This document shows positions 7,647-41,907 of a stretch of 64,000 bases of DNA, piece after piece. The stretch is from Solirubrobacter pauli (GTDB lineage Bacteria > Actinomycetota > Thermoleophilia > Solirubrobacterales > Solirubrobacteraceae), in the NCBI RefSeq assembly GCF_003633755.1, contig NZ_RBIL01000002.1, forward strand, positions 2,232,001 through 2,296,000, written 5' to 3'. Each line of letters starts with the position of its first letter. The stretch's first letter is position 1. The position numbers and the translations under genes were made by a program. The notes beneath the pieces were generated by a model, which did no database searches, was not told where the DNA came from, and saw only the letters and a program-made list of their open reading frames with translations.

Positions 7647-9236
7647 CTAGGAGGCGGCGGGCTTCTTGCGGGCCGCCGGCTTGCGCTTGGCCGTCGACGC
7701 GGCCGGCTTCTTCGCGGCGGCCGTCTTGCGCGCGGCCGCGGGCTTCTTCGCCGCCGTCTTCGTCGCGGCGGCCGGCTTCTTGGCGGCCGTCTTCGTCGCG
7801 GCGGGCTTCTTGGCCGCGGTCTTCGTCGCGGCCGGCTTGCGCTTGGCGGCGGGCTTGCGCTTCGGCGTCGCCGCCTCGGGCGCGGGCTCGGCGACGGCCT
7901 CGACGGCCGCGGCCGCCTCGACCACCGGCTCCGCCTCGGCCTTGGCCTTCGGCTTGGCCTTGGCCTTCGGCTCGGGCTTGGGCTTGGCCTTCGGCTTGGG
8001 CTTCGGGGCGACGAACTCGCCGCCGGCGGTCGCGGAGCGGATCGCCTCCACGCCCGCCTCGCCGACGAGCAGCTCGGCGCGCAGCACGCCCGAGTCCGCG
8101 AGCGACAGCGCCGGGAACGTGCCGAGCGCGGCCAGCGAGCGGTCCAGCGCGACGAGCGTCGTCTCACCGCCGACGGGCGCCGGCGACGTGGCGACGATGG
8201 TCAGCGAGCCGCCGCCGGCCAGGTTGCGGGCGGCCGCGAGCGCGCGCCGGGCGGCGCTGGACGGCAGGTACTCGAAGCCGTCGATGAGTAGCACGGCGTC
8301 CCCGCCACGCGCGGCGACGCGGCGGCCGGTCTCGACCGCCTGCTCGACGGCCTGCGCCTGCGCGTCCGCCGAGGCGGCGAACGTCAGCACGGCGCTCGGC
8401 TCGACGGCCCAGTCCGCGGCCTCCTCCGGACGCACGCCCGTGAGGACGACGCTGACCTCGAGGCCCTCCTGATCCACCAGCGCGGCCGCGAGGCGACGCA
8501 GCGCCTCGGTCTTGCCCGAGCGCGACGCGCCGGCGATGACGACGCGCGAGCCCTTGCCGAACGGGGTCAGCCACTCGATCGCGGTGACCGTGGCGTCGTC
8601 GGAGCCGAGCGCGATCCGCTCGTCCGGCCACGCGACGGCGAGGTCCTCGAAGCGCGTGCCCTCGGCGACCTCGTCGGCCGGGCGGCCGTTGATGGTGTCG
8701 ACGCGGACGAGCGACGGGAAGCGCTCGGAGCGGCGCGCGGCGCGCACCGGGCCGCTGATCTTGTCGCCCGAGACGAGCTCGCAGCGCTTGACCTGGGCGG
8801 CCGAGATGTAGATGTCGTCGTCGGACGCCTCGGTGCCGAGCACGCGCAGGAAGCCGGAGCCGTTGGCGAGCAGCTCGACGGTGCCCTCGGCGAGCTTGTC
8901 CTCGGCGGCGCCGTTGGAGCGCTCCTCGGCGACGGGCTCGCGGTCGCGGTCGCGGCCGGAGTCGGCGGCGCCGTTCTCGTCTTCGTCGCGGCGACGGCCA
9001 CGGCCACCGCGGCGGCCACGGCGGGAACGCTTGGGCGAGTCGTCCTCATCAGCACCGGTGGCGGCGGCCACGGGCTCCGCGGCGACGGCCTCCCCACCCT
9101 GGCGGGCGAGGATCGCGTCCACGAGGTCAGGCTTGCGAAGGCGGCGGAAGCCGTCGACCCCAAGCTCGTTGGCGAGCGTGTGCAGGTCGGCGAGCGGGCT
9201 TTGCTCCAAGGCGGAGCGGTCCAGGACAGTCGGCAT
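7647..9236 (-). CDS. Rho-like ATPase with altered active site and histone-H1-like tail
   Basis: 529 residues. An N-terminal Rho_N helical domain (2-47) is followed by an Arg/Asp-rich linker, an RNA-binding cold-shock-like domain (about 115-185) and a RecA-type core with Walker A GASRSGKTE (about residue 235). It ends in a 130-residue Lys/Ala/Pro tail of TAAKKPAA repeats like histone H1. Compared with E. coli Rho from memory, the segment ERPEE is VRPEE here (catalytic Glu211 replaced). The DSITR motif is DGFEYL and the Q-loop stretch is missing before ARNLAGGGSLTIVAT. It may bind RNA or DNA without normal translocation. RBS GAGGAGA lies four bases before the ATG. A canonical rho elsewhere in the genome is expected but not seen here. 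Confidence 0.8.
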   Translation of the reverse strand: MPTVLDRSALEQSPLADLHTLANELGVDGFRRLRKPDLVDAILARQGGEAVAAEPVAAATGADEDDSPKRSRRGRRGGRGRRRDEDENGAADSGRDRDREPVAEERSNGAAEDKLAEGTVELLANGSGFLRVLGTEASDDDIYISAAQVKRCELVSGDKISGPVRAARRSERFPSLVRVDTINGRPADEVAEGTRFEDLAVAWPDERIALGSDDATVTAIEWLTPFGKGSRVVIAGASRSGKTEALRRLAAALVDQEGLEVSVVLTGVRPEEAADWAVEPSAVLTFAASADAQAQAVEQAVETGRRVAARGGDAVLLIDGFEYLPSSAARRALAAARNLAGGGSLTIVATSPAPVGGETTLVALDRSLAALGTFPALSLADSGVLRAELLVGEAGVEAIRSATAGGEFVAPKPKPKAKPKPEPKAKAKPKAKAEAEPVVEAAAAVEAVAEPAPEAATPKRKPAAKRKPAATKTAAKKPAATKTAAKKPAAATKTAAKKPAAARKTAAAKKPAASTAKRKPAARKKPAAS

Positions 9237-28673: not shown

Positions 28674-29906
28674 ATGCGCCGTTCGGGTGAACGCTGGGCC
28701 GTGGCCCAGTTCGTGGTGTCGGGCCTCGCGGCGGTCGCGCTGGTCGTCGTCCTCGTGCTGGTCGCGTTCGCGCGGGCCGGCCGCGAGGAGGCGGCGGCCG
28801 CCGCGACCGAGGTGACGCGGATCACGGCCACCACCGTGATCGCGCCGCTCGTCGACGCGGACGTGCTGGCGGGAGACCGCGAGGCCCTCGCCCGGCTGGA
28901 CGCGCGCCTGCGGACCGGCGTGCTGCGGGAGCCGGTGCTGCGCGTGACGATCTACCGGCCGGACGGCCGCCTCGTGTACTCGAGCAACCCGGGTTACGGT
29001 GCCTCGGGGCTCACCCAGCCGATGCGCGAGGCGCTGCGCCGCGACGACACGTACACGCGCGTGGGCGGGCCGCTCGAGCCCGGCGCCGACGTGCCGTCCA
29101 CGGTCGAGCTGCTCGACGTCTACCAGCCGGTGACCACCGCGAGCGGCGAGCGGCTGCTGATCGAGTCCTGTCGCCGGCTGACCGCCGTGCGCGCCGACGG
29201 ACGTGCGCTGCTGGACCGCTTCGCGCCGTACCTGATCGGCGGCGTGCTCGCGCTCCAGCTCGTCAACCTGCCGCTGGCGATCGTGCTGATGCGCCGGTCG
29301 CGCCGATCGCTGCAGCGGGAGATCGCCGCGTCCGACCGCGAGCGGCGGCGGCTCGCGGCCGACCTGCACAACGGCGTCATCCAGGACATGGCCGGGCTGT
29401 CGATGGCGCTCAGCGGCGCGGCCGCCGCGCACCAGAGCCCGGAGCTGCGCGCGCTGGCCGACAACTCGCGCCGCACCACCCGCGCGCTGCGCCAGGCGCT
29501 CGTGGACATCTACCCGCCGAACCTGCAGCGCGCCGGGCTGCGCAGCGCCGTCGACGACCTGCTGCAGGCGACGCCGCTGGAGGTCGCCGCCGTGCTGGAC
29601 GACGAGCTGGACGAGCTGCCGCCCGACACCGCCGCGCTCGTGTACCGGACGGTGCAGGAGGCGGTGCGCAACGTGGTCGGCCACGCCGGCGCGTCGCGGA
29701 TCGACCTGCGGATCGAGCGCGTGAACGGCTCGCTCGACGTGCTCGTCGCCGACGACGGCCGCGGCTTCACCCGGGCTCAGCCGCGGCCGGGCCACGTCGG
29801 GCTGGCGCTGATCTGCGACCTGGTCGAGTCGGCGGGCGGTGAGCTGACCGTGGACTCCGCGCCCGGCGACGGCACCGCGGTGCGCGCCCGGGTGCCGGTG
29901 CGGTGA
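28674..29906 (+). CDS. NarL-family sensor histidine kinase
   Basis: 410 residues. Membrane helix 1 (about 13-34), an extracytoplasmic sensor of about 150 residues (GADVPSTVELLDVYQPV), helix 2 (PYLIGGVLALQLVNLPLAIVLM), then a HisKA_3 dimerisation domain with ADLHNGVIQDMAGL (phospho-acceptor His) and a HATPase with EAVRNVVGHAG and DDGRGF. The partner is the regulator that follows: its GTG at 29903 overlaps this stop as GTGA. ATG 28674 gives a normal N-terminus; the longer frame is a shadow. Confidence 0.92.
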   Translation: MRRSGERWAVAQFVVSGLAAVALVVVLVLVAFARAGREEAAAAATEVTRITATTVIAPLVDADVLAGDREALARLDARLRTGVLREPVLRVTIYRPDGRLVYSSNPGYGASGLTQPMREALRRDDTYTRVGGPLEPGADVPSTVELLDVYQPVTTASGERLLIESCRRLTAVRADGRALLDRFAPYLIGGVLALQLVNLPLAIVLMRRSRRSLQREIAASDRERRRLAADLHNGVIQDMAGLSMALSGAAAAHQSPELRALADNSRRTTRALRQALVDIYPPNLQRAGLRSAVDDLLQATPLEVAAVLDDELDELPPDTAALVYRTVQEAVRNVVGHAGASRIDLRIERVNGSLDVLVADDGRGFTRAQPRPGHVGLALICDLVESAGGELTVDSAPGDGTAVRARVPVR

Positions 29907-30583
29907 TCCGGGTCCTGCTGGTCGACGACCATCCCGCGCTGCGGGCCGGGCTGGAGGCGATGCTCTCCGTCGCCGACGACCTCGAGGTCGTCGCGAGCGC
30001 GGCGGGTGGCCGCCAGGGCGTCGAGCTCGCGCGCACGGCCAAGCCCGACGTCGTCCTGATGGACCTCGAGATGCCGGACCTGGACGGCGCGGCCGCGACG
30101 CGCGCCATCCTGGCCGAGCCTCGCCCTGCGGGCTCGTTCGGCTGTCGGGATCGCCCAGAGGGCGATCCCGCGGGGATGGGCTCGCCCCGGCCGCCCGCCG
30201 TGGTGGTGCTCACCTCGTTCGGTGACCGGCCGCGCATCCTCGAGGCGTTGAACGCGGGCGCGACCGGCTACCTGCTCAAGGACGCCGAGCCGGAGGAGGT
30301 CGTGCGCGCGGTCCGTGCGGCCGCCAACGGCGACGCGCCGCTGGACCCGCGTGCGGCCCGGGAGGTCCTGTCGGCGCAGCGCGAGACGCCGCTCGACCTC
30401 ACCGACCGCGAGCGGGAGATCCTCGGCCTCGTCGCCGCCGGCCACGCCAACAAGGTGATCGCGCTGCGGCTCGGCATCAGCCACAAGACCGTGCGCAACA
30501 CGCTCTCGGGCGCCTGCCGCAAGATCGGCGCCACCGACCGCACGCAAGCCGCGCTCTGGGCGCAGCGTTCCGGCCTCGCCTGA
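29903..30583 (+). CDS. NarL/FixJ response regulator with palindromic insertion in receiver
   Basis: 226 residues. The receiver has the acidic pair DD (8-9), phospho-acceptor Asp54 in LMDLEMPDLDG, Thr in VVVLTSF and Lys in YLLKD. A LuxR HTH follows (LTDREREILGLVAAGHANKVIALRLGISHKTVRNTLS). Between ILAE (69-72) and PPAVVVLTSF are about 22 extra residues compared with the paralogue at 41248, encoded by stacked inverted repeats (30113-30169). The insertion sits in the alpha3-beta4 loop, so the fold is probably retained. Cognate to the upstream kinase. Confidence 0.9.
   Translation: MIRVLLVDDHPALRAGLEAMLSVADDLEVVASAAGGRQGVELARTAKPDVVLMDLEMPDLDGAAATRAILAEPRPAGSFGCRDRPEGDPAGMGSPRPPAVVVLTSFGDRPRILEALNAGATGYLLKDAEPEEVVRAVRAAANGDAPLDPRAAREVLSAQRETPLDLTDREREILGLVAAGHANKVIALRLGISHKTVRNTLSGACRKIGATDRTQAALWAQRSGLA
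30113..30187. repeat. In-frame palindromic element inside receiver domain
   Basis: Contains a perfect 10-bp stem GGGATCGCCC/GGGCGATCCC with an AGA loop (30147-30169) and, before it, a second stem with arms CGAGCC/GGCTCG (30115-30136). CTCGCCC occurs at both ends (30120 and 30181). It is translated without a stop as residues about 73-95. Confidence 0.65.
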
Positions 30584-41247: not shown

Positions 41248-41907
41248 GTGCTGAAGGTGTTCGTGGCCGAAGACGAAGCGCTGGTCCGTGGCGGCCTGGT
41301 CGCCCTGCTCGAGCTCGAGGCCGACATGGAGCTCGCCGGTGAGGCGTCCGACGGGGCCGCCGCGGTCGAGGGCGTGCTGCGCACGCACCCCGACGTCGTC
41401 CTGATGGACGTCCGGATGCCGGCGCTCGACGGGATCGAGGCGACCAAGCGGATCCTGGCCGCGGGCTCGAAGGCGCGGATCGTCATGGTCACCACCTTCG
41501 ACCAGGACGAGTACGTCTACCGCGCGCTGCAGGCCGGCGCGAGCGGCTTCCTGCTGAAGGCGCTGGCGCCCGAGCGGCTGGCGGCGGCGATCCGCACGAT
41601 CGCGTCCGGCGAGTCCGTGCTCGACCCGGCGCTCACGCGCCGGCTGATCGAGGAGTACCTCGTGCGCCCGGAGCCGGACGCGCGGCTCGCCGCCCGGCTG
41701 GAAGACCTGACCGACCGCGAGCGTGAGGTCTGGCTGCTGCTCGCCGAGGGCAAGTCCAACGCGGAGATGGGCCGTGACCTGTTCCTGAGCGACGCGACCG
41801 TCAAGTCCCACGTGACGCGGCTGCTGAGCAAGCTCGGCGTGCGCAGCCGGGTCGGCGCGGTCGTGCTCGCCTACGAGAGCGGCCTCGTGCGGCCCGGCCG
41901 GCGCTGA
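41248..41907 (+). CDS. NarL/FixJ response regulator (paralogue A)
   Basis: 219 residues. Receiver with Asp54 in LMDVRMPALDG, VTTF and LLKAL; LuxR HTH LTDREREVWLLLAEGKSNAEMGRDLFLSDATVKSHVTRLL. It is closely similar over its whole length to the regulator at 54582-55253. The GTG is fixed by TACGCT-N6. The partner is probably the double-unit kinase at 41983. Confidence 0.93.
   Translation: MLKVFVAEDEALVRGGLVALLELEADMELAGEASDGAAAVEGVLRTHPDVVLMDVRMPALDGIEATKRILAAGSKARIVMVTTFDQDEYVYRALQAGASGFLLKALAPERLAAAIRTIASGESVLDPALTRRLIEEYLVRPEPDARLAARLEDLTDREREVWLLLAEGKSNAEMGRDLFLSDATVKSHVTRLLSKLGVRSRVGAVVLAYESGLVRPGRR

Follow-up and report, generated by a model that had tools for sequence, protein, structure and literature searches.

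Within the 64,000-nucleotide stretch of the Solirubrobacter pauli genome analysed here (the window; contig NZ_RBIL01000002.1, positions 2,232,001 to 2,296,000), the gene encoding a response regulator is interrupted by a short double-hairpin DNA element that is read through in frame. This gene, its partner kinase gene and the parts of the element are listed in Table 1. When compared with the orthologue of S. phytolaccae KCTC 29190 (genome G003) the window regulator shows a net gain of exactly 22 residues (66 bp), ILA-EPRPAGSFGCRDRPEGDPAGMGSPRPPA-VVVLT being aligned with ILA-ADDGVR-VVVLT, and the kinase-regulator pairs of the two species share 88-91% nucleotide identity on each side of the insert. 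The window paralogue at 41248 is likewise without the extra residues. An initial annotation, made from the sequence alone, had counted about 22 additional residues relative to this paralogue, which agrees with our result, and had proposed to look for an empty site among orthologues, which S. phytolaccae provides.

The insert breaks the PF00072 match into two stretches, both receiver parts remaining recognisable by Pfam. In a structure prediction based on an alignment of 40 proteins (mean pLDDT 88) the receiver fold is kept and the insert forms a low-confidence loop between the helix at 62-71 and the strand at 99-104, that is, the alpha3-beta4 loop in which it had initially been placed. Because the nonsynonymous and synonymous divergences from the empty-site orthologue, insert excluded, are 0.038 (dN) and 0.407 (dS), the regulator gene is on these rates under purifying selection across the whole comparison, in which the periods before and after insertion are inseparable. 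A different arrangement is present in S. deserti CPCC 204708 (genomes G001 and G006; loci L129 and L130): the kinase is missing, as are residues 1-117 of the regulator, and the C-terminal part abuts DNA resembling the neighbouring DoxX gene of the opposite strand, which looks as after a deletion.

Table 1. Coordinates of the host genes and of the element parts in the window
Feature	Position	Strand	Evidence or remarks
Host gene, NarL/LuxR-type response regulator	29903..30583	+	Pfam Response_reg and GerE; reading frame open through the insert
Partner histidine kinase gene (start uncertain), overlapping the regulator start	28701..29906	+	Pfam HisKA_3 and HATPase_c
Element, one copy of the dispersed double-hairpin repeat	30111..30173	+	Covariance model R1 (window copy left out of the build): 64.7 bits, E 6e-12 in the window
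Hairpin 1	30113..30142	+	Fold; arm covariation between copies; exact apex at 5 further places in the genome
Hairpin 2, perfect 11-bp stem, AGA loop	30146..30170	+	Same hairpin 2 in L115 (S. phytolaccae) and L118 (G004)
Remainder of the extra DNA, absent from other copies; may be host loop or trailing sequence	30174..30187	+	L115 and L118 part from the window copy after GCGG

In the window copy an imperfect hairpin precedes a perfect one. The first is made of an arm GCCGAGC, a fixed 17-base apex CTCGCCCTGCGGGCTCG (30120-30136) and a complementary arm ending GTTCGGC, and in the second CGGGATCGCCC (30146-30156) and GGGCGATCCCG (30160-30170) enclose the loop. The stacked hairpins described initially are therefore present, although the stem given as 10 bp measures one pair more, and of the span then proposed (30113-30187) only the part up to 30173 recurs in other copies, the shared part in turn starting at 30111. 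A 26-nt pattern of hairpin 2 matched one place in the window, this site, and none of 100 shuffles. Folded as single-stranded DNA, the minus strand beats 200 of 200 shuffles (z -3.5), the plus strand folded as RNA being less exceptional (z -1.7). The copy can be read openly in all six frames.

The element is about 63 bp long, has a fixed GCCC-NNN-GGGC apex in each of its two adjacent hairpins and is represented by a covariance model of 65 positions. Aligned copies have a fixed layout of variable arm, 17-base apex, complementary arm and second hairpin, the latter with an apex GCCC-NNN-GGGC and variable arms of its own. The covariance model was needed because the stems vary, for which reason a single sequence pattern joining both hairpins matched the window copy alone. 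In 22 copies, 14 of the 24 stem pairs have changed on both sides while the apices stay fixed, and 87% of cells are paired as against 76% in shuffles; none of 500 shuffles reached any of five covariation measures, and the result also lay beyond all slides. These covarying stems could reflect selection for the hairpins, the correction of imperfect palindromes by repair, or target copying. An Rfam search with the element returned no match of any kind.

Other copies were found both in genes and in intergenic DNA, as the initial annotation had suggested searching for. A DNA search of this genome detected partial copies, and the exact apex occurs six times in it and 18 times in G002, with no occurrence in 14 sampled genomes outside Solirubrobacter. 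The covariance model matched all seven congeneric genomes (21, 26, 68, 42, 16, 4 and 26 matches in G000, which is this genome, to G006), counted at E up to 0.1, so that the weakest of these matches may be due to chance. The spread is patchy in a sample of Solirubrobacteraceae, where 9 of 41 genomes match, and in a class-wide sample of 149 genomes at a stricter threshold three match, all in the same family. G043 has 27 matches and its congener G022 none. Matches outside Solirubrobacter have different stem sequences and often form tandem arrays. Such arrays were seen at L190, L191 and L192 of G002 and at L376, L382, L389 and L396 in other genera, and some G002 contigs end in or beside element copies, probably as assembly breaks.

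Searches of relatives with the joined flanks of copies revealed empty sites for many of the copies in this genome, in S. phytolaccae and in G001. Insertions within genes occur with either strand read and in several frames, and relative to element-free orthologues the in-frame cases add about 17-24 residues. They include a protein kinase, the L040 gene (likely UspA-like) and the L116 gene, with 24 residues gained in each, as well as the L219 and L082 genes. In the recombinase gene xerC of S. phytolaccae (L115) a copy in reverse reading lies in frame near the N terminus.

Most copies are intergenic, have the orientation of the upstream gene and start at its stop codon. By a simple purpose-written gene caller, which makes the counts approximate, 107 matches were divided into 49 with both neighbours sense, 21 inside genes (window copy included), 18 convergent, nine with both neighbours antisense and five divergent, the rest being incomplete. 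A sense stop codon falls within -12 to +20 of the element 5' end in 78 of 162 matches, at exactly -2 in 24 of them, as compared with 24/162 at the mirrored position. At the corresponding junctions of relatives the stop codon frequently overlaps or directly adjoins the next start codon, as between dnaN and the gene that follows it, in TAGATG and in ATGA; where the element is present, it moves the two codons apart. One junction is filled in both S. deserti (L066) and S. phytolaccae (L092), with differing hairpin-2 stems, and unfilled in the species of the window and in G004; separate insertions into the same place, or loss, may account for it.

The extra DNA at 30111-30173 is thus a copy of a short dispersed double-hairpin element, very probably a non-autonomous mobile repeat that is tolerated in frame in the receiver. 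The comparison of filled and empty sites in related genomes shows that lineages of Solirubrobacter have acquired it at numerous unrelated sites, and from these lineage-specific gains we infer that it is mobile. An enzyme supplied in trans would recognise the element by its hairpin shape. As the window copy is open in six frames and lengthens a surface loop by a multiple of three bases, the regulator would have been left a working protein, and selection would thus tolerate the insert. Most of the surviving copies are located at gene junctions beside a stop codon, where insertion would do least harm, and an added role as RNA at these junctions (shielding, or control of ribosome or transcript) is possible.

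Several observations weigh against this interpretation. No mobilising enzyme was found, and the transposase-like gene which the initial annotation had suggested might flank the element was not seen among the neighbouring window genes scanned. Terminal inverted repeats were not seen either, the two hairpins being separate and the ends unpaired. The sign of target duplication is weak: the mean direct repeat is 5.29 against 5.01 in shuffles (p 0.03), and repeats of at least 9 bp occur in 3 of 55 cases against 0.6 in shuffles, one of the three probably deriving from a tandem copy. Moreover the copies are diverse, with no recent burst of identical ones seen, and their strict orientation beside stop codons exceeds what neutral insertion predicts, which points to selection or targeting in addition.

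The alternative that survives best is that of a structural RNA (transcript-end hairpins, an attenuator or a protector of the mRNA) kept and duplicated because of a function at gene ends, the window copy being a stray. The compensatory stem changes and the one-sided position of stop codons, with its single preferred distance, argue for it, as does the reported stalling of ribosomes by repetitive extragenic palindromic (REP) sequences located up to 15 nt from the stop codon in E. coli (PMC12306157). For a role as RNA at gene ends the position bias is in favour; the missing wobble asymmetry lends nothing, since G-U and A-C mispairs number 54 and 43 with column pair 8-27 set aside, with no clear bias. 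An intrinsic terminator (GC hairpin plus T run) does not fit, as neither the window copy nor other copies whose sequences were inspected have a T run 3' of hairpin 2. The in-frame copies in genes, read from both strands, are also contrary to a purely RNA-based origin, and the clean gains at empty sites require mobility anyway. We therefore regard this explanation as unlikely.

The mobile repeat favoured here might alternatively belong to a system of REP sequences and bacterial interspersed mosaic elements (BIME) moved by a REP-associated tyrosine transposase (RAYT), with its Y1 domain. The element resembles such a system in being a short palindromic repeat whose hairpins come in pairs and tandem arrays and which lies mostly between genes, and six of the seven congeners have one to three Y1_Tnp genes. 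Nevertheless G002, the genome with most copies, gave no Y1_Tnp match, and no element was found in the examined flanks of any Y1_Tnp gene tested; RAYT is thus unsupported as the mobiliser and the explanation improbable.

An equally improbable proposal is that the hairpin is templated by the target, the 5' arm being host sequence, often with the host stop codon, and the 3' arm an inverted copy made at insertion. Its clearest case is L005, whose 3' arm, when reverse-complemented, is identical at 7 of 7 bases to GCTGAGC, the sequence at the empty site in the nearest relative, its own 5' arm having since changed. In L038, L092, L094, L095 and L109 a stop codon lies within the 5' arm, and the 3' arm matches this arm. 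On average the excess is small (3.5 of 7 bases for the 5' arm against 2.9 shuffled; 3.4 against 2.9 for the reverse complement of the 3' arm, p 0.0125). However, most copies carry an arm of their own (GCGAAGC type) that the empty site lacks, the match is 0 of 7 bases in L074 and L221, and compensatory change after insertion yields the same picture; with most copies bringing their own arm and the mean excess being small, a general host origin of the arms was not adopted. To our knowledge no such mechanism has been described, and if true it would be a new one of insertion.

Finally, the idea of a merely variable protein loop, encoded by GC-rich DNA that folds by chance, was rejected. Receiver loops do vary in length, hairpins are common in a GC-rich genome and the RNA fold of the plus strand, taken by itself, is not extreme. 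However, the same DNA recurs outside homologous loops, both within unrelated genes and between genes, in either orientation and in several frames, and the covariance model matches the window copy with an E of 6e-12. The finding that the initial annotation had named as refuting its reading, identical residues over changing DNA in every orthologue, was not seen, the nearest orthologue being without the residues.

Among known systems, the Rickettsia palindromic elements (RPE) to which the insert had been likened are short, palindromic and dispersed, lie between genes and in frame in unrelated genes, can be read from both strands and are tolerated on protein surfaces (PMC2229807, PMC10969869). The Solirubrobacter element is also palindromic, intergenic and in frame within unrelated genes. 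However, RPE measure 105-150 bp and form one long stem (PMC2229807), whereas the present element has about 63 bp and two hairpins, fixed apices with free stems, a location mostly at stop codons and a host among the Actinomycetota. The likeness in behaviour holds by this comparison, whereas size, architecture and host would set the element apart from RPE proper. REP and BIME sequences consist of short hairpins that occur in pairs or arrays, in many cases just downstream of stop codons (PMC12306157). These traits are shared by the Solirubrobacter element, which differs in that copies, though mostly extragenic, also lie inside genes (21 of 107 called), and in the absence of Y1_Tnp from the richest genome and of elements beside the Y1_Tnp genes tested. 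Bacterial miniature inverted-repeat transposable elements (MITEs; Correia/NEMIS, ERIC, RUP) are small non-autonomous repeats able to fuse to reading frames (PMC2229807, PMC10969869). In the present element no terminal inverted repeats joining both ends were seen, and the excess of direct repeats is weak. The double-hairpin elements (DHE) of fungal mitochondria are GC-rich double hairpins, mobile and mostly intergenic, and by this description resemble it, their hosts being fungal organelle genomes.

Searches of the openly accessible literature, which leaves out most subscription journals, turned up no publication describing comparable elements in Solirubrobacter. Palindromes that code in frame have been described mainly in Rickettsia, and the Actinomycetota case would be a second and apparently unrelated one. 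With a structure kept through covariation and a tendency to lie at stop codons, it would show that elements of this kind have repeated origins and are able to reshape both proteins and operon junctions. Moreover, what such an insertion costs, and how it affects gene coupling, can be tested directly on the many sites available in both filled and empty form.

Of seven copies with CCRAGC-type arms, a subgroup picked out after the fact, five or six are intragenic, as compared with 16 of the 100 remaining copies (Fisher p 0.003 or 0.0002). Four members of this subgroup, in reverse reading, have a common peptide P(N/D)EPxGRGS, and L115 has PNEPVGRGL. Elsewhere in the window, the element model weakly matches positions 8741-8799 of the minus strand (16.8 bits, E 0.1).
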